In this document: one piece after another, positions 12,101 to 53,700 of the stretch
How positions within the stretch are numbered: position 1 is the first letter of the stretch
Layout: each line of letters begins with the position of its first letter
DNA from: Odontesthes bonariensis
Lineage: Eukaryota; Chordata; Actinopteri; Atheriniformes; Atherinopsidae
NCBI RefSeq assembly: GCF_027942865.1
Contig: NC_134522.1
Coordinates: 10,071,849 to 10,135,848 of the forward strand
Direction of reading: 5' to 3'
DNA length: 64,000 bases
Program-made: the position numbers and the translations under genes
The notes under the pieces: model-generated
The model's database searches: none
What the model was told of the DNA's origin: nothing
What the model saw: only the letters and a program-made list of their open reading frames with translations

Positions 12101-14895
12101 GCATTAGCCAATACTGACAATAAAACTGAAGATTTCAGCCGTCATGGAGACCATATGTCTAGACATATGGCTAAAGAGCATTACATCAATTATTTCTTAA
12201 GAGAAAAGTGAACTGGTTAGCCCATATTCTTTAATGCCAGCACTTCCGTGACTGGTTTAATAAAACAAGACAGCCTTTCAAAGAAGTCTAAACAGTTAAA
12301 AGGTGAGAAAATAAGATGGTTTTGGGGGTTTCAGCAGATCACAAAAACAGGATGAAACCATGCTTTCTCAGTGAGAAATGACTAATGGGAAACATGACAC
12401 TGCCGAGAGCAGATATAACCAAACCAGCTTTTAGTTTCACATATTTATCTACTGTAAATACGCACTGGGATGTTTTTAAAAGTATCGTATTTATCCAGCC
12501 GAGTCAGGCGAAACCAGACAAAGGCCAAATATGCAAATGTCCTTCGAGAAAAACTGTGACAAAGCATGATTGTGCAGCCCCGTCTCCACATGACACCGAC
12601 TGGGCACACAGAAGCAGCTTACAGATACATAACATCTAACGGGGTCGTAATTCAGTGGCGACTTTACTACACCATAAAGAAATCCTGCAGGAGGCAATCT
12701 CCATTACAGCCTGGCACCCCCCCCCTTCGGATGACTTTGTGCAGGGGACACAGCGCTGACCAGCCATGCTGCTCAGCAACATGTCATAGGGAAGCTGCAG
12801 ATGTACCATTTCACACCAACCCAACTTCTAACGCTGCCGTGGCATATGAACATCTTAATTAGTAACAACTAAGACTTCTGGAGGCAGCATCCTCGAGACT
12901 CACTCACACATGTGGGAGTTAAACCATTTGGACTGCATTTCGTTTAGGATCTCTTTACCCATCTGAATGGGTTGACTGAGCAGACATTTTTGATTGCTAG
13001 CTGTTTGAATGTTTGACCAGTGATGTGGGAGGGAATCGGATCTGTCAGCTCAGCACTGAGTAGTAAAAGCATGCAGGGAGCGAGTGTAAAAGCAGAGCAA
13101 ATGAGGAAAGTAGGCTTTATTTATGTTGACACGAGGCGAGTACATCAAAAAAAACATTATCAAACAATAACTGAACATGTTGCAAACCAATACTTACAAT
13201 AAGAGAGAAGGAATGCAGTGCTGATAGATGCCTGAGAAGTGAATAGGCTGCTTTGACAAGGCCAAGCCCACACTCAAGCTCTACAGTTCCAAAAACCCTT
13301 ACCTCTAATTATGGACTTGTCTAAACTTAGAAAAGTTGAACGTCTGCGCTAATACAATCCAGGGCAGAGGGAACATTATTGGAGCCATCTTCACTCTGAA
13401 CTACAAACGCATCGATGCAAAAGACAAGAGTCCCAACTCTGAGCAGAAGCTTAGACACATCACATAACAAATCACAGTTTATTCACAACACTGAGACAAA
13501 GTTAAGCCTGTAATTACATTGCAACCCTTGGAAAGAGGAAGATGAAAAGATACTTGAACACAGACAAAACTGGAACCTCTGGTAAATGTGTGAAATAGAG
13601 GGATAAAAAATACTGACTGCATTTGTTCGTCTGTGGCAGATGTGACTTTTAACTGCAGACTCGATGTATAGTCATGACAAAGCTCAACATCAGCTTCAGC
13701 TTCCTGTGCTGGTTGGTTGGTTGATTGATTGATTGATTGATGAGTGTGTGACCACCGCCTGCTCAGATGTGTGAGGACCCTGCTGATTGTGTACGCATCG
13801 CTCCCCGGAGAGGAGTGGGCCAAAACAAAGCATCGACCGCGCCGTGCAGCATGTGTAACAGCGAGCTGCCCACCGCTTCATTGTCTGTGAAATAAAAAGG
13901 CAAAAAGGCAAAAAGGCAAAGAGCCCCCCCCCCTCCCCTCCCCTCCCCTCCCCTCTGTGGAAGCAAACATAAAAAGGATCTAGGCAGATAGAAACCACGC
14001 CAGCAGCATGCTCGGTGTGATCATGCCCAACCTGCAGGGTGATGGTTGTACACCCTGGAAAAATTAAACCAGGCATTCCCAACAAAGCCTGCGGTGGCTT
14101 TCGTGATAATTAAACCCCTAAATTAAACCCAAGCACGAGGCTTCAGACTGAAATAACCACTCCTTCATGCAGTCTCCTATTTTTATTTTTTTATTTTTTT
14201 GTTTCACATTATGTATTGCCTAGCAACAGTGCGTTACTAGGACTGTACGGGCTTGCCACGAAGGCGACCTCACATTTCTGAGCCTCCCCGCTCATGCGGC
14301 TCTCCAGCCCGCGTCAAAGAATTTCACCTCCCGGCAAAGTCCCCATGGTACATTTCAAACCACGTACAGTCTGCAAACTAACGTGGCAGGCGACAACTAC
14401 ACGATTTCACGACACTCCTCAAACTTTTGTAGCGCCGTGTCTCGGTGAACAAACGTGAGAAACTCGAAGGACTTGCGGAGAACCGGTTTAGGAGCCGGAC
14501 TTGTTGGGCTACCGTGCGCGTAAAGTCGCAACAGGAGTCAGATTCCGATCTGAGGGCGCTGCTGTCAGTTTGAGTGTCAAGTTCTACAGCAAAACTATTC
14601 ATTTTTCAGGGTGTCGACTATCGGCTGTGTGTATCCTGCAACTGCGCCAGCAGACGGGCTGTGAAGTGCCGCGGAGTTAAACACCGTTTTCAACGCTTTT
14701 AACGGTTATGAAAGCTAGCTTGGTTTAGCCAAGTTAGCCGTGGTTATAGCCAAATTAGCACCAGCTAATGCCAAGAGTCGTGGTAGTGTGTTGAGAAACT
14801 GAACACTTACTTTTATGTCTGCCCGAACCCCAGGACTGTTTAGCGATACTGGGACTCCGTATAATTGCCCTCCCGGCGGATTTCAAAGCGTCCAT
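127..14895 (-). CDS. ldlrap1: LDL receptor adapter protein 1 (ARH), N-terminal part, exons 1-4
   Basis: Clathrin adaptor whose PTB domain binds FxNPxY tails of LDL-receptor family proteins for endocytosis. Minus-strand coding exons: 14811-14895, 3187-3329, 2281-2393, 127-241; phases join without a stop to give the first 152 residues. Residues 1-28 begin MDALKSAGRAIIRSPSIAKQ. Exon 2 carries LPENWTDTRETLLEGM and GEELSAAAVKRIVAT, exon 3 SGKKLQKVTLTVSPRGIIL, and exon 4 CTADKMHDKVFAYIVQSQ followed by SLECHAFLCSKRKM; these match the mammalian PTB domain closely. The rest of the PTB domain, the clathrin box and the AP-2 binding region must lie beyond base 1. Intron 1 is about 11.5 kb. The start is the conserved MDALKSAGR methionine. 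Teleosts have ldlrap1a and ldlrap1b; I cannot tell which this is. Confidence 0.96.
242..2280 (-). other. ldlrap1 intron 3
   Basis: No coding exon recognised. It holds short A-rich runs (for example near 1760-1778) and otherwise unique-looking sequence. Confidence 0.8.
3159..3176. repeat. (GT)9 microsatellite just downstream of ldlrap1 exon 2 donor
   Basis: Perfect GT dinucleotide run. In the ldlrap1 transcript it reads as a CA repeat starting about 11 nt after the exon 2 donor. A complementary (AC)6 run at 3344-3355 lies 15 nt upstream of the exon 2 start. Confidence 0.95.
3598..4178 (-). mobile_element. Harbinger/ISL2EU-like non-autonomous DNA transposon, copy 1
   Basis: 581-bp element with long terminal inverted repeats: GGTGCTGTTTACACATACCC on the left and its complement on the right, extending through a GGGTATTTTGATAAAC core. 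It is flanked by a 3-bp TAA duplication (3595-3597 and 4179-4181). An internal minus-strand reading frame (MEVLAALLFLRAILACVLLK, from about 3932) matches one in the copy at 40763-41440, so it is probably the remnant start of a transposase-associated frame. TWA duplications suggest the PIF/Harbinger-ISL2EU group; the family name is an inference. Confidence 0.85.
12151..12170. repeat. perfect 20-bp palindrome
   Basis: CCATATGTCTAGACATATGG is its own reverse complement; the match stops at both flanking bases. Two CATATG E-box-like sites sit in the arms. Function unknown; chance occurrence is possible. Confidence 0.9.
13715..13742. repeat. TTGG/TTGA tetranucleotide repeat
   Basis: Tandem GGTT units pass into tandem GATT units inside ldlrap1 intron 1. 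Confidence 0.85.
13924..13955 (-). repeat. G-rich tract, quadruplex-capable on ldlrap1 strand
   Basis: A C10 run followed by repeated CCCCT on the plus strand gives, on the minus (transcribed-sense) strand, at least five G4 runs separated by single A bases and then a longer G run. This fits the usual G-quadruplex pattern. It lies in intron 1, about 0.9 kb downstream of the ldlrap1 start codon. Confidence 0.8.
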
Positions 14896-17889: not shown

Positions 17890-19710
17890 TTCTGTAAACC
17901 TCACAGAGCGAGAGCGCAGCCAAGGTCAGACCTGGGGGAGAACAGAACAGTGACTGTGGGGCATAGAAAACAAAAAACAAAACAAAAACACATCTCCGTA
18001 CTTTCAACCATCAGTTGGCCGAACAACCGACTAAACTGTCACTTTCACAACATTTTCAAGAAGCCAACGACGGCAATCTGAGCGAGAAAAAGAAAAAGCT
18101 TCTTCTGTGTGCGGCAGGTGAAAACCGCACGCGAGGTGACGCCGAAACCCCCGTGGGGCTCAAGCAGACCACCCCCCCCCGCAGGAAAATAACGATAATA
18201 CCAGAAACAGGAGTGAAGTAAACTGCTTTTAAAAAAAACAGCCACGTTGCAAATACTGAATAACATTCACAAAAAGAAACGTGGCTCTACTTCCTCACTT
18301 TCTACTACACAGTCGACTACAAACAGACAGCGGCTTTCTCTGAACGATCAACAGAAACTTTTAACTGCGTATTTGACAAGACGTGAGCCAAAGTATTAGC
18401 AGTTACATTCTCCAACACATTACCAGAGAAACTCCAGTCTTGGCACACAAACTGAAGTGGCAGATAACTATCTTATCTGGAACATGGCATTTCCAAAGCT
18501 TTGTTTACATTGCACAGTTCATCTTTACAGTTTTCCCTTTCAGAGCTGCACGCGTTTTCAACGGCGCGCCATCAAAATAAAAAAATAAAAGAACCCAGGG
18601 AGGCGGCTCAACCAAAGGACTCGGGGTTAAACGGCAGCAGCGATGAGCGTCTTTTAGAACACGATGAGCTGCAGACGGTGGTGGCTTCCCTCGTGTCAAC
18701 ATACTGACAGTGTGAAAATAAGTACTGTGAAATTTAGAGCTGTTCAATGTGCCTGACAAAGGACACGGCGGCTCTTTGAAAGTGGATGACGATCAGCTTC
18801 CCTACCAGCGGGGAAGTCAAAAAGACAAAGAAACACAAGGGAACGATGTCCCACTTCACTATGCTGACTGGAAGCCTTCTTCTTTCCAGCTCAGTGAGAT
18901 TTCCCCACCAAATTCAGATGGTTTGGGTGGCATCTCATGTCCTCAACTCAAGGCACTGTGATCATATCAACCAGAATATCTGCTCGGGTCCGTTTACTTT
19001 ACTTTAAAGTTTTCTGCTTATAACACAAGTTATTTTCACAGCTTTTTGCCATCAACGTTTCCAGTCTGTTGGGAAGAAAAAAAAAAAAAAGAAAGAAAGA
19101 AAGAAGCCTGGTGAACACAGAGCCACACAAAATGCTTTAAAAACTATGAAAACGCCACATGCCCAAGCAGATTAGAAAAGGGTGAATTTTGGTGACCGAT
19201 TGTGGATTAAAACAATAAGTTAAACAAGTCTGTGCCAGTCTTTGCACTACATTCCTCTGGTTGTACAAATGTTGTCCAACTATATCCGGAGGATAATGAT
19301 CTGTCAAATAAATTAGGATGCAGGTCGGGACGTTTTCCCAATTTTAGGAGGCATTAATCAACCTAAAGTAAATACGGTAGCTTGTTCCAGGAACAGAGAG
19401 CCAGTTTCTGGTTGCAGCGATGGCGGAGATGAAGATGCACACCCGAATCTGTGAGGTTTCACTAGACATTAAAGAGAAAAAAAAAAAAAAAAACTGACGC
19501 TTCCTAATTGACGTGGGATGTCCATTTTTAAGTTGTTTTTTTTTTTTTGTCTTTTGTTTTAACTACAACAAATACAGTCACACAATACAACAACTTCCTT
19601 CTGACCTGGCGAGGAGAGAACAGAACAAAACTATTCCCAGCCACAAGATGATGGACCTGCGGGAAAAGTAAAAATGTTGGGAGGATGGATGGAGGGGCGG
19701 GACAAAGCCT

Positions 19711-22700
19711 TCACTTTTTGAGGGGCTGGTAAACGGAAGCGTTGGGGTCCAGGCCGGAGGGATTGGTGTCCATGAACTTTGAGGAGTAGTGGGGGGCCAC
19801 GGGGGTCATGCTGCTGGTGTCGGCTGTGTAGGAGATGCTGGGCATGACGGCCATCACTTCTGCTATCTTCTGCTTCAGGTCTTTGATCTCCTGGTCCTTC
19901 TGAAGGATTTGACCTGAAAACAGAAGAAAAAAAACGCGTCAGATGTGGCGACTTGACGATATGTGGAGGCGTCACGGTGATTCGAGCATTATGGACATGG
20001 CATGAACCTTGTGCGATCTCCAGCTGCCTCTTGGCGTCTCCAAGTGCAGAGAAGAGGTCCAGTTTGATCCTGGTCTCTGCGCTCAGACTGTTCTCCAGAT
20101 GCTGGGTCTTGTCCTGCATGGCTGACAGGGCTGACATCAGCACCTCTGTGTCTTTTTCATTTTCCTTATATTTATGAAGCTCCTGAAAGACAAAACATGC
20201 AGTCAGAGTCAGCATCACAGGTTAATATCCAGGGCTCGTTGCTTTGGTACACTGGTGATTACATGTATGAAACAAAGACGGTAAATAAAGATCACCGACC
20301 GAATGCCGATTAAACACGTCGCCACGGCACTCAAAAACCAGATGTTAGTGAGTATTTTTGACCAGTGGGAACGAGGCTTTGGGTTCAGCATCTTTAAACA
20401 TGCGTTTTTAATCAAAGTGGCAGCAGATAAAGGCCCCATCCACACGTAGCCGGGTATCTGCTAAAACGAATATATCTTTCTACGTTTGGACCTGTCATCC
20501 ACATGAAAACGCATCATAAACTAATATTTTTAAAAACTCCGGGCAAAGTGAAGATTTTTGAAAACTCCGTTTATGCAGCTGCGTGTAGACGGAGATAACC
20601 GGAGTTTTGCGTTTTCGAACGTCACAATATGCGCCAAAACAACAACAAATCTGCTCTGACGTTAAACGTGCGACCTTTGTTTACTGAAGAAGCATGGATG
20701 TCTTGAGAACTGTGGTGGTTACTATTGTGCAGGCGCTGTTTACTGCCTTGATTTTAGACGCCCAAGTCGTACTCCCAGAGGAATGGCGTGACAATTTCGC
20801 ATGTCCCGGTGTCCTCACTCCTGTCGCTGTCGGAATTATTACGTCCTCATATCGAGGGGCAGTCATGCGATTACCTGTCAGTGTGCTCAAAAAAGTTGCG
20901 TGCACACTTTATTATTTAGCTGACGAGGGCAGATTGCGCAAAACAGAAAATGCATTTGGGTTGTCAAGACAGGTGAAAACGCAGATGTTCGGTTATGTGT
21001 GGAAGGTGTTTTTTTTCGAAAACGAGGTAATGTGGATACAGATTATTTTATAAACGGAGGGGGGGAAATATTCGGTTTTAAAAATACCCGGCTACGTGTG
21101 TACATAGCCAAAGACTGGGCCACTTCTAATGTTCTTCAGAGCACAACAAATACAAACAGAACATGGTATGAAACTATCCACACCCCTGTGCAAATAAAAG
21201 GAGGGACACGCAGCTTCACTGGTGTGATAATGTGAAAATGGTGTCGTTTTGAAATAAGCTTTCTGAGGCAAGTTATCAGAGCTAAGGTTGATGAGGAGGA
21301 TTATGAACCTCAAAGCATTTTCCTTTTCTTAGTGATATCAAACAATAGCCGGTTACTTGGCACAGAAACATGACGTGATTATCAGAGGATAATCGGCCTT
21401 CGTTCAGTTGTTAAAAAAATCCAAACATTTCATGAATGACTGAAGAGGAACGAGTCTGAAACCAAAGTGTCAAACAACAAACCTGTACTTTTAATTCGAG
21501 CTCTCGTATCTGGTCCTCCTTTAACTTGATGTCCATTGTTAATTTTTTACACTCTGTTTCTAATTCAGCGATCCGCCGCCGCAGCGTGTCTGTGCACTCT
21601 CCCCTGAGAGAAAAGAGAAACAGATGTGTGAGAGCAGAGCAAAGAGGTTGCTGAGGAGCTCATTTCATATATATATCGCGTCTGCCCTCACCTGGATGCT
21701 GCTGCTAGCGCTACTGCTCTGGCTGCTGTGGCCTCCTCTAACTTCTTTCGTTTCTTTTCATCTGCGAGCTGCTTCTCTGCAGAAGCTCGGGCCTCCTGCT
21801 CTGCTTTGAGCCTCTTCTCCAGCTGGCCCACAGCCTGTTTGTCCTTTTGCTTCGCCTGCACAGCATTATGGAGCCTAACACATCCAACCACACAACATGG
21901 AGCAGGTGAGCAAACTTGACAGAATAAGTAACAGAATCACTCCTTCATACTTGTGCTCTATATACACTCAATGCTGACACCAAGCTTTACAAGGTAAGCA
22001 ACCCAAGTAAAAGTCTTAAGTACACTGGAAAAAATGCCCCTCCAAAAATAAGTAAAAAAAACAACAAATACAAGACGTTTTTGCTTGAAATAAGCAAAAA
22101 AATCTGCCAATGGAACTAGTGAAAATCGGCTTGTCAAGATTTCTTGAAATAAAATGTGATATTTAGGACTTTTGAGTTAAAAGTGACCTTGAAATTAGCA
22201 AAAAAAAAAAAAACTCTTCAAATGAAAAAAAAAGCTTGTTTCATGTGAAATATGACTCAAAACAGATGTTTTTAACAAGATATTCAAGATGTATTGTATT
22301 AAAACAAGTCCCTATATCTTGCTGAAATGGTACTTGTTGGGCAATTGTGTCTTATATCAAGTGTAATGAGATACTCAATGAGAAAAATATACTTGGTAAG
22401 ATTTCGATTTTTTTCCAGTGTATACGGTGTGTGAGTTTAATTTACAGTGAAAACTCTGCACAGATCAGGCAGATTTCTCTGAAAGTAGCTGTTAGCAAAC
22501 AAAACTTTGAACTTGATCAAAAGGTCAGCATATAACTCATCTATAATCAGTGCTGTATACCATTAAAAACTCTATAACCCCAGCTAATCGTGACCAAAAC
22601 TGATCACTAGCCCAACTTTGTGTAGACAAGAGTCGCCCCACTTACTTGCTCTGCAACAGCTCATTTTCCTGGCGCAACTGACCCAACTCAGTGCGTATGG

Positions 22701-25700
22701 AGCGCTCAGCGCTGCCTAGCGAGCCGATCTGGCTGCGTAGGTCCTGCTCCACCTGCCGGCTGGCCTGCAGGTCAGCCTTCAGCTTCTTAATGTCCTGCTC
22801 CAACCTGTCCCAGGTGGAAATGTAAACACACACAAAGTAAATTTAGGTCCGATGACCCAGCTAAACAAATGATTTGTTTAGGGTTTCACATATATTTATG
22901 AATTTCGATTAAACAAAGACATCCTGAGTTCAACTTGTAATGAGTCAAATTCACAGCGTAACGAAAACTATTTAAAAATCATGGCTATATCATGAGCAAA
23001 GAACAGACGGAACAGAGTGCACTTTGATGCAAATGGTATTTGTGTGGATCAGCCACACTGATTTATCAAAACATTTCTGGTATCGGAAAGGTTTTCACCT
23101 CGACTACTCTGTGCATGCCAGTGATGAGAGATAGTTCAAATTTACAGTTAAAGTCACAAAATAAATCTGCAATATGAAGCTGTGACAGGTACTTTAATGG
23201 TGGCCTGCATGGCTAAGCATGCACACAGCTGCTTGGTCTTCCTGAGCCTCGACACAGTCGCCTCTTAAAAGTGGAAGAGACCAAAGTCCTTAAAGTCAAG
23301 ATAAGTTCTTAAAACAGCTCACTGCACAATTAAACCAGTGAAGTTACTTTATGAAAACACTGGAGTGAGGCGTTAATGAGAACTCATCTGTGCCTGATCA
23401 TGACTGTCTTACCTAACAAGTGCTTCTGGCTTGCTCAGCTGGTTGTTGGGGATACAGTTTTCGGTGGGATCCCTGTGGGAGCCCCCTGTTGTCCCTTTCC
23501 CAACTGGTAACTTTTGCTTCTTCTCGTTCTTCCCTGAGGAGGACGAAGATGACGACGCAGAGGAGGGGACGCTGCCGTTGGTGGCGCAGTGGCCGCGGGG
23601 TGAGGAGTTAAGCGCTGCGGCGTTGCTGCTGGCATTTTTGTAATTTTTAGAGGAGGAGGATGATGAAGAAGAACAGGAGGAATTGTTATCCTCTTTAAGC
23701 AACAGATTCTCTGTGCTGCCCAGCTCTGTGGTCAGTCTCTTGTTGTTCATATGGTTCTCCATATACTCCATCTCCTGGAGTTTAGAGTCCACTGATGATG
23801 GCAGGATGTTGTGTTGCTTTTTAGCCTCCCCGCCACCTTTTCCTTCTTTCCCTTTTTCTCTATACTCGAGCTCTGGCAGTGGCGCTGATGTCTTTTTATT
23901 GCCCGGAGCACCATTTTGTGACACTGGCGGTGTGTCCACTTCAGATATTCCTTTAGCTGCTGCTGCTGCTGCATGAATACAGAGGAGAATAAAAGAGATG
24001 CACATAAAACATCTGCCCAGAATTACAGGCATCATATCCATTTTTGATCATTTATAAGAATCCCTGATATACAATTCTGCATATTCTTTATTTAAAAAAT
24101 GATTTTCTCTATCTACTGTGAGCACTGATATGATCCACATGTAGTTTGTGGTAATTAACATCTCAGGTGATGTGAATTTGTTTGAACCATTTCCTCGCCG
24201 ACTTCTCGTTCTGTAAGAAAAGCAGGACTTCTTTCATGTGTCAATGGAACCCCATCAAATGACCAAATGAATGATTGTGTGCATGGTGTGTTTGCTTAAA
24301 CTGTGAGGCAGGTGCACCTGTAACCGCAGCCTTTGAATAGAAGGGGAAAGCATGTGCTACAGATGTATGTTAGCATAATGATGGCTTTGTTAAAGTAAAT
24401 AGGAACAAGAAAAACATTTTAAGATTAATGACAAACCAATAAAACAAAGGAAAATATGTACAAATGTTCAATAGATCTCCCCTTAAATTATCGGAAAATC
24501 ATCAAAACATTAAGGTGAATGTATCACCCGTGCCCAAATCTACAAAACTGCCCAGAGAGATAGAGAACTATGACTTTACCAAGTGTAAAAAAGAAAAAAC
24601 ACAATTAAAACAGCGAGGGGATCCAACTACCCAATCCATGATTGTACCATTACTGACTTAAGACAGCGAGCTTGTCCACTGGACAGTAGAAAGACAATAA
24701 AATCTACTTTTTTCATGTCTGACGAGAGGAATAAAGTGACTTTTGTTCACTCGTTTACGTGCACGTGAATCAGGAGTGTACACAGCATGCATGTGGGTTT
24801 TCGTTCTTACCTTCTTCGGCTTCTCGCTCTTGTCTCTGAAGCATCTGTTGCTCTGGAGGCAGAGCCTGCTGTAGCAGCTGCATATAAAATTCATTCTCCT
24901 TCTGCACCTCCTTTTGCTTCCTCAGGCGCATTTTATAACTAACGTAGCTCTTGAAGCCAAAACCCAGCGTGACCACGGGGTAGCCGATGCTGAAGAGATG
25001 GGACACAAAATGCACACAAATCACAACGTGCTCATTCAATCAAGTCAAACTGAGTCAAACAGCAACTGGATTATTAACTATACAAAGAAACAATCACATT
25101 TCTTTCTATGACACAGGTTCAAAGCTAAATCTGCTTCAGAATATCAGCCGAAATGTGGAAAGACTTCATAGATTGCGTATCGATGAATAAAGCTTTGTGA
25201 ACATTAAGATCGATAGCTATAATACTGTTATTATTCCACACTGCCTGTAGTTTAAACATAACAGAAGCTTACCAGTGTGCGGCAAAAGGACGGCACAAGT
25301 CCACGTGGAAGTTCTTCAGGTCTTTGAATCTGATGGCTGCCTCTATGTACACAAAGAGTATCCATAGAGACACGGTGGGCAGACAGACGCCCCTCTCTGG
25401 GGACAAAAAAAAAAGGGAACAAAAATGTCAGAACTGCATTTCAAACCTGAAATGTGTTCATGACAACACCTAACCAAATTTGTTCAAAGTATACAGAACA
25501 CCTGGATCCCGAATGACAAAACTTTGGACTTTAAGAAAAAAAAAAGCCCATTTCATGACACCAGATGAAAATACGCTTGTTCTTGTAAAAAAAATGTAAT
25601 GAAACTTCATCAGTTAGAGACCAAATCTGAATCAAGACAGTAAAGACTTTCACAAAGATTTGTCCCACTCATCAATGTGGTCAAAGAAGGTAGATCCTGC

Positions 25701-42309: not shown

Positions 42310-43299
42310 TTCGGAGCGGTGTATGACCTGCGTAAAGTTTCAGGGTAGTAGAATAGATTGTTGAACAATCCACGGTTTTATACGCCGGGAACGACAAGGT
42401 AAATAGCAGAAGTTACATAAAACATCGCGAGATTACATACCACGGGCGAGATTACAAATAAAGGGAAATGCCTCTAATATTTTCAACAGTTGAATTTATT
42501 CCGCTGTACCTCTCAATAAAGATATGAAAAAACTTATCACACAGGCAGGATTTTTAAAAGATGTATACTGTATATGATAAGACACTTTGCACAGGGCTGA
42601 GCTCCTTTGCAGTTACCTTTTTTTCTCACATCACGATCTTTACTCAGCTTTGGAGAGCACTAATACACTGATTCAATCGTATTACCCAATGTTTAACAAC
42701 AAATGGGAACATAGGAAATACAATTAAGATAAGCACATTGCTCTCTCAGCAATTCAGTAACATTTTCCGCTACAAAAAGGACAGATGAATAAATAAATAG
42801 TCAGATAAAGCATTCATAATGTGTGCAATTTTGATCGAATTTCAAACTCAAGGTAAGCCTTCATGTTATTCTTGATTTCACTGTTAATCGGTGTGAAGAT
42901 TGAGTGTACAAATTCACAGAAACTGTCATTTCTGAACTGATTATTTTTGCGAAAAACCCATTCTGCATATTTATCTTAAAAAACAAAACAGCTTTCACTC
43001 GTCCCATTGCCTGCAGCTTTAAGGGTCTTTCTGAACGATTGGGTTATTTGATCAAGGACCGAAGTCGAGTTATTTCCTTTAACCCTCCTCAGCCTCCATT
43101 TCAAGTTTAATTATTAATCAATAATAAAGATGCATATGAACATTACTTTTGAATCTCGTTTTGTGGACATTCAGATCTCAGAAGTTAAATCAAGAGTGAA
43201 CTGAACAGGTTCGGCTCCAGCAAATGAACGCTTGAGAGTGAGGTGTTTAAAAGAATGGACTCGTCCGGGGCACCCCCGTAAATGGAAACTCCCAGACTC
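42310..43299. other. divergent spacer between mgst3 and rsrp1
   Basis: About 1 kb that should contain both promoters. No exon or repeat recognised; the part next to rsrp1 (43260-43400) is the more CpG-rich. Confidence 0.6.
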
Positions 43300-43543
43300 T
43301 TCTTAAAACCCGTTGCTGCCGCAGCTCAGCCATTCGCGTGACGACATCAAACGGACCGACTACGAGGAAAACACAAAGTTCTTGGTTTCCGAAATTTTAC
43401 GCTGTAAATCAACGAATTTGATCACCGTTTCGCTTTATTTAGAAATTGTGTCCTTGTGATACATATTTAGAGGCGGTTTTCTTAGATACTTCTTGTTTTT
43501 ACAGACCGTTTTCAGAAAGAGTCTCAACGCCGCTGTTCACCTG
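43300..43543 (+). other. rsrp1 non-coding first exon (5' boundary approximate)
   Basis: A strong donor CACCTG|GTAAGT closes an exon at 43543, and the coding exon opens at 43968 after a pyrimidine-rich tract and CAG, so a 5' UTR intron of 424 bp is implied. The upstream start is not visible. Confidence 0.6.
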
Positions 43544-43749
43544 GTAAGTTGTAGGCCTACATCATAAAGCTTTGTGTTGTTTGACCATTAGCGAATATAT
43601 TACTCAAAGGGTTGGCTTCGTGAAATGTATTATCTTTGTGATGCTTGAATTAATTGAATGTTACTATTACGGAGCCGGTATGAAGACGAATTCAAGCAGG
43701 ATTTCAACGCGGTAGCATATGTTAGCAAAGCTATTTGTAGCCTGCGTCA

Positions 43750-43772
43750 TTCTGGAAATTTCCAGAACTTTC
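43750..43772 (+). promoter_or_regulatory. five-unit heat shock element in rsrp1 intron 1
   Basis: TTC-GAA-TTC-GAA-TTC at 43750, 43755, 43760, 43765 and 43770, each unit exactly 5 bp from the next with alternating orientation. This is the canonical HSF binding array (three units suffice for an HSF trimer). It sits in the first intron about 210 bp after the exon 1 donor. Binding itself is inferred. Confidence 0.75.
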
Positions 43773-43988
43773 CAGTCAGCCGTTGAAGTTATGCAACGGC
43801 GCTTCGGTCGCTAGGGGCAGCACTAAGAAAAACAATTACGCAACATTCTCTGTTCATTCACTTCGGGTTGTATAACAAGAATGTCACCATAGGCCTCTGT
43901 ATGGTGCAAGTGTAAAACTTATATAATACCGTAGTTCTAATTCCGTTCTTTTTCTTTCCCATTTCAGCCCGCGGCAGACGACTAAACA

Positions 43989-46207
43989 ATGGCCAAACGA
44001 CCAAACTCCCACTCTGACATGGCCCAGGCTCGTCAGAGCGATGGCATTAACGTGATCTTCGACCAGAAGAGTCCCGATTCCTCTCACTCGCGCTCCCGCT
44101 CGACAAGCAGCAGCAGCAGTCGCAGCAGCCATCGCTCTGGCAACTACAGAGGACGCAAAACCCAGAGGACACGCCACAGGTCTTCATCTTCAAGCAGTAG
44201 TTCCTCTTCTCGCTCCAGGTCCCGCTCCTACCCTCGTTGCCACAGACGTTCCTCCTGCTGTGGTTGCAATGACCATCGCAGATATGGCCGGGGCCGTTCT
44301 CGCTGTTCACCACCACGTCACGATAGGGCTCATTCTCGCTCCTACAGTCGCTCTCCTGTAGAGAGGTACTCCCATCACAGCAGATATTACAGATCCCGCT
44401 CCAGATCTAGGTCTTCTGGATACAGGAGACCTGTGAGCCAGTTAAGAAGAAGATTCTCCAGACCCCCAACCAGAACACACAGGGCCCGGTCAAGATCCAG
44501 ATCTCCTGCACACTCTGTCAGTATGAGCATGCAAGGTAATTACATTAGTTACTTCAGGGACTTAATGTTAGAAATGACTGGTTAAGTCCAATTCATTAAA
44601 TGCTGTCGATCTTTTTTTGTTGCTCAGACAAAAGGGAACTTCTTGAGGTTGCCGAGGCCAACGCGATGAAGATCCTGGGAGCGGAGAACCTGGAACTTCC
44701 TGAGAGCGTGAAACCAATCCAATCTGAGTCCAGAGGGTTGTCACCAGAGCCACTGGCAAGGGTGAGACATGGCTCCGAAAAAAGTGACACACAGGTGAGC
44801 ATCTGAAACTGTTAACTTTGAGGAACACAGCACACACTAAAGACAGAATGTTTTCTCACAGCCCGTCAAACCGGGAACTTTTTGTTGTTTTCAAATCATT
44901 CTAAACATTTTAAGCTTTTTTTTTTTTTTTTTTTTTTAAAAGAAAGAAAATTGTTTATACACATGGTAACGGTGCACACACCATTAGTTTTACACCATAC
45001 ATACAGGTTCCTGATTTCTTTTTGTTTCCATTTTAATCAAACTTACATGGTCTTATTCAGTTGTCTGCTGAACTGTGCTGTTGAATTTCCTGTCTGTTAA
45101 CCCTTGGACCTGTGAGGGAATACACATACTCTCTGTATTTATTCCTGTCTTCATAGATAACATGACAGTGGTCTCCTTCACTCATCGGCACCTGGGATTA
45201 AAGGGCTGTCATGTGACTTTGGTGACAACAATATGTTTACCTGAAAGGTTATCAGATGAGTCTTGTGATGTCTTCATGTGTGATCTTTTAGGGGTTAACC
45301 AGATACAGATCATGCATATCCACGATGTACACTTCTGCTAATTGCACACATACATTGATGCACAAACAATTCAGAATATATTACTAACTCACCTTCATAT
45401 ATATAGATGTAGTAGAATGTTGACATTACAAATGTATTTATGCTTGCAGATGAAATGGGTTATTGTTATTTAGCAGAGTTCTCCACTCGCTGATGGAACG
45501 CAGGCGTGTGGACTGCATTATAGTGACTATTCCTGTCAAGAGAACTATAAACAGATGAAGAACTCCACTCCGTATGCCAAAGATAAGTTGGTACACAGGA
45601 CGTGTGCTTAGGGGCTGGGGGACCTGCGTCGTCATCATTCTGCCACAGTAGACAGAGAAGACATCTTTTATTTCTGATAAATATTTGACATCTTTGTTTT
45701 GTCCAGCTTTAAGGTCTGTCCTTGAAGCATTTATTCAATTATTGGAAGGGCTGCATGAGGGATGCAGTGTGAACATACTTTTAATGCAAAAGAAATGATG
45801 TAACCGTAGTAATCCATCTATATGAACTTCAGACTGTCAAGCTCACTGTGCCGTTGGTTTCTCACTCATGATTAACTTTCCATTCTTCTTTTTTTTTAAT
45901 TAGGACGATGAAGAGGAGCCTGATGAGTCCAGCCCAAGGCTGTCTCCAAGGAGGAAAATTTCCTTCAGCATTAATGTAAGTGACATGGAGCTGCAGTTAA
46001 TGCAACAAGCTCATCCTGACCTAATGTGAAAATGGATTATAATGCAAATCTTTGTTCCATTTCCAGAATTCTGTGGCCAAACCCACAGCAGCATTGCCAT
46101 CTTCTGCAAAGGTAACTCCCAGAGTGGACAGCTATGAAAGCAGGAAGCCCTACGGCCACTGGATTCCAGTCCGTTCAGGCCGAACCTCCCGTGCACGCAG
46201 ACACTAA
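43989..46207 (+). CDS. rsrp1: arginine/serine-rich protein 1, complete
   Basis: Nuclear RS-domain protein (human C1orf63/RSRP1), thought to act in pre-mRNA splicing. Coding exons 43989-44535, 44628-44794, 45904-45975, 46067-46207; 927 nt, 308 residues. Residues about 30-180 are dense in SR/RS dipeptides with serine runs. Exon 3 carries RELLEVAEANAMKILGAENL, matching human ELLKIAKANAAKALG. The end has NSVAKPTAALPSSAK and KPYGHWIPVRSGR, matching human NSVAKP and SPYGLWIPI but extended by an arginine-rich tail. There is no RRM, so it is not a classical SR factor. The 92-bp intron after exon 2 stays open for 16 codons before a TAA; retention would give a 198-residue RS-only form. It is convergent with syf2. 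Confidence 0.95.
45631..45722 (-). mobile_element. 92-bp fragment of the same hAT element in rsrp1 intron 3
   Basis: The reverse complement of 45631-45722 matches 36691-36782 inside the tmem50a hAT relic almost base for base (for example AAAGATGTCAAATATTTATC and TGTCTACTGTGGCAGAATGA). It is therefore a second, inverted, strongly truncated copy of that family. Confidence 0.85.
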
Positions 46208-50700: not shown

Positions 50701-53700
50701 TCTCATCATTACAGAAAAATCTCCAGTCATCAAACGGGAGACGTTGCCAAAAACGCGCAGAACACTGTCGACTTAAGAGGCAAGCTGCAGTACACTGCAT
50801 GTCCAAAACCTAGAATACTGCGCCGAAGAAAGATTAGCACAAACAAACTCATCACCTAAAGCTCTTTTCAGACCTGAAACACAACATAAATCAATCGTAC
50901 AACATCTATCTGTTAAAGCGACGACATTCTTTCACTTGCATCTTGGTCACCGTTACATAGTTCTTTCATTCATTTATCGAACTTGTATTCTAACCAAGAA
51001 CTCAACCACTCATAAGGACAATTTGACACATAAAAAAACTCCAGGCTCTCAATATCACATAAAACAACACCGACCTTCCTATCATACCATATTCAACATG
51101 ATTTCTTTAATTAATTTATCCATGTAGGAGCTTCCAGTTTACAATATAATCTTTCACTTCTTCTTCATATGCAGTCTGCCGCCTCTTTGAGTTTTGTTCC
51201 CACCATGACAGAAGCATTAAACCTAATCTCATTTGCTTTAGATTGATAAAATCATTTTGTTGGTCTGTAATGGCTGCTCAGTAATAAACGCATGCTATGA
51301 TCCTATCACACTTTTCTCACTGTCTAACTGCTTAAGGCAATCGGCTCCGAAGCCTCTGATGTTGTTTTTCCAGCAAGTTCTGATAATTGTGGGTCAAAAG
51401 CCAACAAAATGACACCACTATAAAATACAGACAAAATATAATTTAGCTTTGATTATTTAATACATTTTTCATGTGGAAAATTGATCGTTAAAATAAATAA
51501 ATGTCTGGGCTTTATAGGACATTTCGAAGGTCTGGTTCGAAGTAGTTCGGTATTGTTCTGTGTTGAAAGCTATAAATAAATGTCGCCTGGTTCGACCAAG
51601 TGAGATTGTTCTTGTGATTTGTGACTGAAACACAACCGTGTACCCTTCAGAAACATCAACATGTTTGGTTGCCATCAAATTCATGGAAGTTGCACACATT
51701 CCGTTTGTGGAAGACTGGCTCCATGATTGGACACAATCTGGAGACGCTCGAGGCCGTGATGGAGAGGAAGACTCCGAACAACTTTAATCGATCGTGGATA
51801 ATCCTGAACACCCTCTCCATCACGTACTGGAAAAACAGCGGGGCTCCTCCTCGTCCAGGAGGCTCATTCAGCTCCGCTTTCACAAGGAAGGCTACAGGAA
51901 AGCCTTCCTGTCGTATGCCATCAGACTTAACAACAGTTCACCTCCGTCTTACAGAGACTCAATGAGTGAAAAAGTATTTATCTGTGTTTATAAATGCCTG
52001 CACCTATGTTCACCCTCTTTATTCAATATTCATACCATTTGCACATTACTGTACATAGTTTTGTTTCTTATTCTTTTGCTCTGCACTGGCTGCTGTAACA
52101 CAGAAATGTCCCAGCCTGGGATCAATGAATTAGAACACATCTTAGTAACATTAACCTGCTAGTTAAAGATTTGTAATTTTTCATTTGAAGAGAAACCTTT
52201 TAAAAAATCTCTTGAAATTTTCGCTAGAAAGTGATGCTATTTACTAAGATTGTTCTTACATTTTAGGCATTTTTATTCATACAAACACAAAACGCGAAAG
52301 GGAGCAAGGGGATGATGGTTATTTAATTTATGTCAACCATGAGGTAAGCTACCTGACCACTCAGCTCACTTTATATCCTACAATCCCACTTTAGTACCCG
52401 TTTCATACCCTAAAAAACACGTGTAATGAAAGTGTGAACTGCAAACAATCGGCCTCCATCTTTGGAGGCGCCACCAACCTGCAAATCCTGTGTCTGGATT
52501 CTTCTTCTTCTTCTTCCTCTCCCATCGCTCTGCATCATCAGCAGTGATTTCCAGCAGTTTCACCCGGTCATAGTCCTCTCCACGAGAGGCACATTCCTAA
52601 CAGGCAAAGATTAGTTGGATTGAAAACGGGACAACACACTTTGGAGAAATTTTAGACACTATTTTTCTTAAGATTCTGGTCCATCACACAGTTTCTTTGG
52701 GTGTTTTACTCTAAAGCTGATCCTGTAGCATGATGATAACTACTGATTAAACTCTTAAGTTGTGTAATTCATGGTTTTTAGGGGTCTAGTGCTTAAAAAC
52801 CTAATTTAGTGCATTTCTTTGATTGACTACTTACCCTCTTCCGATTTTACAAAGTCCAATAATTGCTTTGCTCCATCAATAAATCATCCACTATTATCAT
52901 GTTGTTTTAAGGACCTTCTAGTGCTTCTGCAAACCAGCAAAAGTTGAACTTTATATCCATCGTTCTTTCTTTCTGTTTCTTCCAAGTACATTTCATATCC
53001 AAAAGGATCTTCCACCTTTTTTATATAAAAAAATGAACCACTTTATCCAGCTACATAATTGTGTTTAATGTTGTAATGATTACCATATGAATTCTTGAAA
53101 TACAGCCCAAACATTTTTTGTGAGTATAGTGTGAGCTTATCCTTTAAGTCCCTAGCAGTTTTATCCTGAAAAACTATATTTTTTACCAGATTTAAAGAAA
53201 TTATCTGAAGAAGTTCCTGAAATATTGGATTTATCAAAATGGAGTGGGGCAGTTGATAGAAAGGACGAGTGAGTTTTGAGCCTATAACCTTATTAAAAAC
53301 TGAATAATCTTGATAAAATAGGTCTATGGCTACAAATGTAGACTGAAAGACCAAAAATACCTTTTTCTTTTCACCTTCAGCGAGCTCCCACTCCAGTCGA
53401 GCTTTTTTAGCCTCCCAGTTGGCAGGAAGTTTCTGCCTCTTATCCTCCTCCACAACCTCCTGATGATTTAGTTTACGAGCTTCGTTCTGTAGTGAAAATG
53501 AACACACACAGAAAAACAGGATTACAGGGAGAAATATGTCAAGAAAGTGACGCTAAACACGACTGGAATCAAAACCATGATTTATTGAACTGAAAATAGA
53601 ACAGCCCTCTATGATTTTGTTTTTAGCTTTGTGACAGCCCAGCTTACCACGTACCATTAATTATGAGAACCTGTACAAGTTACAGTGGTTTCTCTTGGTT

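Follow-up and report, generated by a model that had tools for sequence, protein, structure and literature searches.

A run of heat-shock-factor (HSF) units in the presumed regulatory part of rsrp1, which encodes an RS-domain protein of the fish Odontesthes bonariensis, raises the question of whether this gene is under direct control of HSF1 or whether the run is one of the few such arrays that a genome of this size is expected to hold by chance. The array, TTCTGGAAATTTCCAGAACTTTC, lies on the + strand at positions 43750-43772 of a 64,000-nucleotide stretch of contig NC_134522.1 (the window), and an exact pattern match resolves it into five perfect units alternating between TTC and GAA every 5 bp. 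On balance, it is probably a genuine HSF1 element serving the heat induction of rsrp1. The evidence for this assignment is drawn from the phase and rank of the array, its genomic setting and published heat responses of mammalian RSRP1 (published work is cited throughout from excerpts of the papers).

The array and its place in rsrp1

A heat-shock element (HSE) is defined by three or more nGAAn pentamers that alternate in orientation and keep a 5-bp phase (PMC8379338), as against the five units present here. In both TTC-NN-GAA pairs of the array, the step between the two units is pyrimidine-purine (TG and CA), a feature which is frequent in HSEs without being strict (PMC8379338), and long contiguous arrays of this type are preferred by HSF1 (PMC12366260, PMC8379338). 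The first-pass annotation of this DNA had described five perfectly phased units that were unlikely to arise by chance in 64 kb, and both statements hold. The pattern TTCNNGAANNTTCNNGAANNTTC has a single match in the window and none in 100 dinucleotide shuffles, with 3.1e-4 matches expected per window from trinucleotide frequencies. Moreover, a window-wide scan of unit chains ranks the array first and finds no other run of at least three perfect units.

The placement of the array in the first intron of rsrp1, as initially annotated, is likewise supported. The gene model is complete, its four coding exons joining into one open frame, and residues 29-297 of the product match the Pfam family RSRP (PF17069; E=1.5e-20; 74.4 bits, cut-off 27). 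One place of this family was found in the whole genome; no second one was available for a paralogue comparison, and a tblastn search with the C terminus against further genome contigs found no relative. Intron 1 is predicted upstream of the start codon, between a consensus donor at 43544 and an acceptor whose last base is 43967; the array starts 206 bp inside this intron, and the ATG lies 217 bp beyond the end of the array. A repeat origin of the array was rejected, as intron 1 has a single match in the genome and no second copy (in a search that skips very common words) and TRF reports no tandem repeat at the site. The surrounding sequence is rich in CpG, with an observed/expected ratio (o/e) of at least 0.95 in the stretch that contains the array and a median of 0.48 across the window.

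Comparison with heat-shock elements of the same genome

To rank the array, HSEs were scored by a simple weighting of our own for G, A and A in each phased unit, instead of a published matrix. The background comprised the window (minus 100 bp at the site) together with the flanks of 16 loci (L011-L026), and its 212,556 bases held 11 chains scoring at least 13, two scoring at least 14.5 and none reaching 16. As a yardstick, 32 regions upstream of Hsp70, Hsp90 and Hsp20 family genes were used (88,324 bases), of which 20 score at least 16 (best, 24.4); these amount to fewer independent cases than is apparent, because many of the heat-shock genes are near-identical copies. With a score of 22.5, the rsrp1 array stands above the best HSE in 24 of the 32 regions and below those of eight genes on contig C27 (contigs are given as C numbers and loci as L numbers).

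By family, a score of 16 is reached in 11 of 15 Hsp70 regions (nine at 16.1, one at 17.7 and one at 20.6, the latter with four perfect units), the remainder being the C15 copy, the C6 gene, the second C21 gene (13.1) and the C14 gene. Among the three Hsp90 regions, one reaches it (20.6), another scores 15.8 and the third has no chain of 13. The eight Hsp20 regions (of 14) above this level all belong to the C27 genes (22.7-24.4), and the other six lack a chain of 13. Thus, the HSEs of hsp30-like small Hsp, hsp70 and hsp90 genes resemble the rsrp1 array in their 5-bp GAA/TTC alternation and total score (hsp30-like, hspa8-like and hsp90aa1-like are presumed gene names); nevertheless, their chains include imperfect units, whereas the five units of rsrp1 are all perfect and stand in the intron of a non-chaperone gene. 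Two of the gene groups are clustered, ten hsp70-like genes at C26:2.59-3.06 Mb and eight small-Hsp-like genes at C27:8.15-9.21 Mb; upstream of most copies the HSE chains are nearly identical.

Heat responses of RSRP1 in published data

Mammalian RSRP1 (C1orf63; in mouse D4Wsu53e, which we take to be Rsrp1) belongs to the same Pfam family and is induced by heat in four data sets, as far as their excerpts go. In Chinese hamster ovary (CHO) cells held at 40 C for 1 h, RSRP1 rises 2.03-fold and shares a table with HSPA1A/B, DNAJB1, HSPB1, HSPH1, CLK1 and BAG3 (PMC9138356). It also increases in bovine oviductal organoids at 42 C (14.73-fold; PMC10605953), in calf leukocytes on day 5 under heat (PMC13152581) and, as D4Wsu53e, in the hippocampus of mice that had undergone experimental febrile seizures (1.65), where the seizure confounds the heat (PMC4684321). 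Furthermore, mouse Rsrp1 is cited second-hand as an HSF1 heat-response target in testes (PMC8246266; the wording ‘heat shock protein 1’ is taken here to mean HSF1). A link between HSF1 and Rsrp1 therefore seems to have been noted already in mouse, and what is new here is a specific cis element of a known kind in the genome of O. bonariensis. In the part of the open-licence literature covered, no HSF1 element of RSRP1 was found described by its sequence, and no heat response of rsrp1 in fish was found. The excerpts on other vertebrates report that zebrafish rsrp1 decreases with lead exposure, which is no test of heat; those on cold stress in turtles give no direction for rsrp1, and alligator C1orf63 is an entry in a table of sex- and temperature-dimorphic genes, which was not used as evidence.

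Proposed mode of action

The array would represent a contiguous, long-type HSE within intron 1 of rsrp1, close to the promoter. When heat or another stress damages proteins, the five units would be occupied by an HSF1 trimer, or perhaps by several acting cooperatively, in an already open, CpG-rich region, and rsrp1 transcription would rise quickly. In O. bonariensis, HSF1 occupancy of the array, open chromatin and the direction in which rsrp1 is controlled are each postulated in this scheme, as is any effect on splicing; the link from heat to splicing would follow from the RS-domain character of the protein. The HSF1-responsive reading is favoured because a presumed open promoter region, a high-ranking site and heat induction in mammals with HSF1 implicated come together at one gene.

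A variant of this scheme, in which a second promoter, active only under stress, lies within intron 1 and has the array as its upstream element, is doubtful. Such a promoter would combine the HSE (43750), the two C/EBP-type sites (43788 and 43835), a TATATAA at 43920 (148 bp beyond the array) and a start near 43950. The resulting heat-shock transcript would lack exon 1 and dispense with splicing of intron 1, so that the RS-domain protein could be made while heat disturbs splicing. The TATA support is weak, since TATAWAW occurs 113 times on both strands of the window.

Weighing the evidence: five-unit arrays across the genome

Several results weigh against HSF1 control, and the first of them concern the frequency of such arrays. 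Trinucleotide frequencies predict 4.5 five-unit arrays per 945-Mb genome, and a third-order Markov simulation of 239 Mb produced one, or about 4.0 per genome; an array of this length is thus unlikely within the window, yet a few are expected genome-wide. The pattern has 88 matches in the whole genome, against 26 for a backwards-read control pattern, and these fall into 30 places: 17 in a repeat family, eight in tandem repeats (TRF; C4, C6, C15, C16, C21, C25:4712211, C26 and C27) and five outside repeats (C3, two on C17, C25:2879470 and rsrp1 on C22). The five unique arrays observed are no excess over the 4.0-4.5 expected, and the length of an array is therefore no proof of function by itself. 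In addition, ten open frames from seven other array loci are without a chaperone domain (they give transposase-like, SPRY, HECT, MFS, Shroom and sub-cut-off VPS13 matches, and three give nothing); perfect length itself is therefore not a mark of HSF targets in this genome. No more than four perfect units stand in a row in any of the 32 heat-shock regions. From the published data, RSRP1 decreases in heat-stressed bovine granulosa cells (LogFC, log fold change, -1.07), where the authors term the heat-shock-protein response relatively blunted (PMC9105522), and in mouse embryos Rsrp1 ranks among the two genes with the strongest downregulation in one comparison of alcohol exposure (PMC8246266). The direct HSF1 control of rsrp1 proposed at first is accordingly upheld in part: HSE rank, CpG-rich setting and mammalian heat data speak for it, and the bovine decrease and the missing genome-wide excess speak against it.

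These counts also carry the strongest alternative, namely that the array is without function, one of a handful in the genome that happens to fall in an intron. Apart from the match between observed and expected numbers, the control pattern read backwards likewise finds matches in the genome, and the five units are not independent events, because the first 18 bases form a perfect palindrome. The position of the array argues otherwise: only 0.12 such arrays are expected within 500 bp of any gene start (assuming 25,000 genes) and 2e-6 in intron 1 of rsrp1. The heat responsiveness of the mammalian gene and its citation among the targets of the HSF1 response point the same way, as does the CpG-rich setting, the o/e within 250 bp on either side being 1.03 for the rsrp1 array and 0.26, 0.43, 0.46 and 0.76 for the other four unique arrays (among the tandem-repeat arrays, the C26 place has 1.10). 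A chance origin is considered unlikely, while remaining the chief competitor.

The repeat family is an observation in its own right. Runs of five or six perfect HSE units stand next to a CRE-like (cAMP-response-element-like) TGACGTCATGACGTC in this family, whose 17 places (13 on C2, two on C7 and one each on C13 and C19) have the same matched sequence or a near variant of it; sites include L009 at about 4983, L014, L015, L016, L021 and C2 at 1.7-3.1 Mb. A BLAST comparison of nine copies (five on C2, four on the other contigs) shows a core of at least about 170 bp common to all (in two pieces in L014); the other eight places were assigned by the 23-base match alone. The units are perfectly phased, as in the rsrp1 array, but the family is multi-copy with TGACGTCATGACGTC nearby, unlike intron 1 with its one genome match in a window devoid of TGACGTCA. 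The family may represent a mobile element that responds to heat, or the promoter of such an element. A minisatellite in HSE phase (L025:4813-5250; C26:2498612-2499049) holds one run of 28 perfect units; the closest of the ten hsp70-like open frames of that contig is about 95 kb away.

Other stress pathways and post-transcriptional control

The site might instead serve mainly another stress pathway, as an NF-kB/C-EBP intronic enhancer of inflammatory or acute-phase type. The core of the array (GGAAATTTCC, at 43754) is NF-kB-like, further kB-like decamers lie at 43267 and 43284, and two of the three RTTRYGCAAY matches of the window fall within the 424-bp intron 1. However, the loose kB pattern GGRRNNYYCC matches the window 26 times on both strands as against once for the five-unit HSE pattern, a kB site leaves the outer units of the array unexplained, and no STAT-type TTCNNNGAA occurs within 43000-44100 (a separate STAT reading was rejected on the same count, against 42 matches in the window). 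The NF-kB/C-EBP alternative is judged improbable as the main role of the site; nonetheless, the NF-kB-like overlap and the two C/EBP-type matches mean that the array may be part of a wider stress enhancer. The NF-kB-like and C/EBP-type labels are our working assignments, based on consensus sequences.

It is very improbable that the array is incidental and that rsrp1 responds to heat post-transcriptionally, through splicing of its own transcript as perhaps in CLK1, for the joint rise of RSRP1 and CLK1 in heated CHO cells (PMC9138356) agrees with such control but leaves the array unaccounted for, and both controls could act jointly. Finally, a structured RNA was rejected, as the palindrome folds into a hairpin but with z=-1.80 and with 11 of 200 shuffles equalling it; Rfam at gathering scores finds nothing in the window.

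Features of the locus and its neighbours

Table 1. Features at the rsrp1 locus (window positions).
Feature	Position	Strand	Basis
CpG-rich stretch (o/e >=0.95), longest of the window; presumed promoter region	43200..44100		CpG profile
rsrp1 intron 1, predicted; 424 bp, 5' untranslated region, GT...AG	43544..43967	+	splice sites read from sequence
Five-unit heat-shock element, TTC/GAA alternating	43750..43772	+	exact pattern match; top HSE chain of the window
Perfect palindrome of 18 bp, TTCTGGAAATTTCCAGAA, holding four of the five units	43750..43767		computed
NF-kB-like decamer inside the array, GGAAATTTCC	43754..43763		pattern match
C/EBP-type site, GTTATGCAAC (RTTRYGCAAY), 15 bp beyond the array	43788..43797	+	pattern match
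Second C/EBP-type site, ATTACGCAAC	43835..43844	+	pattern match
TATATAA, possible internal core promoter (speculative)	43920..43926	+	sole + strand TATAWAW within 43201-44000
rsrp1 coding region, 308 aa; exons 43989-44535, 44628-44794, 45904-45975, 46067-46207	43989..46207	+	gene model; Pfam

Elsewhere in the window, exons of a Macoilin gene (Pfam PF09726) lie at 19631-24047 on the - strand, and a Macoilin gene is presumably also near human RSRP1. An open frame at 53043-53552 on the - strand has no Pfam match and, in our estimation, resembles part of the splicing factor SYF2; given this frame, rsrp1 may stand tail to tail with another splicing gene. The 20-bp perfect palindrome CCATATGTCTAGACATATGG at 12151-12170 is the longest zero-spacer palindrome of the window besides a TA run.

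Implications

Should the array prove to be a chance occurrence, it would serve as a caution that five perfect units arise a few times per genome. If, on the other hand, HSF1 drives rsrp1 directly, the array would provide a simple cis-acting cause for a gene that appears repeatedly in lists of the mammalian heat response. In that event, rsrp1 would offer a handle on the adjustment of splicing after heat as well as a marker of thermal stress beyond the chaperone genes.
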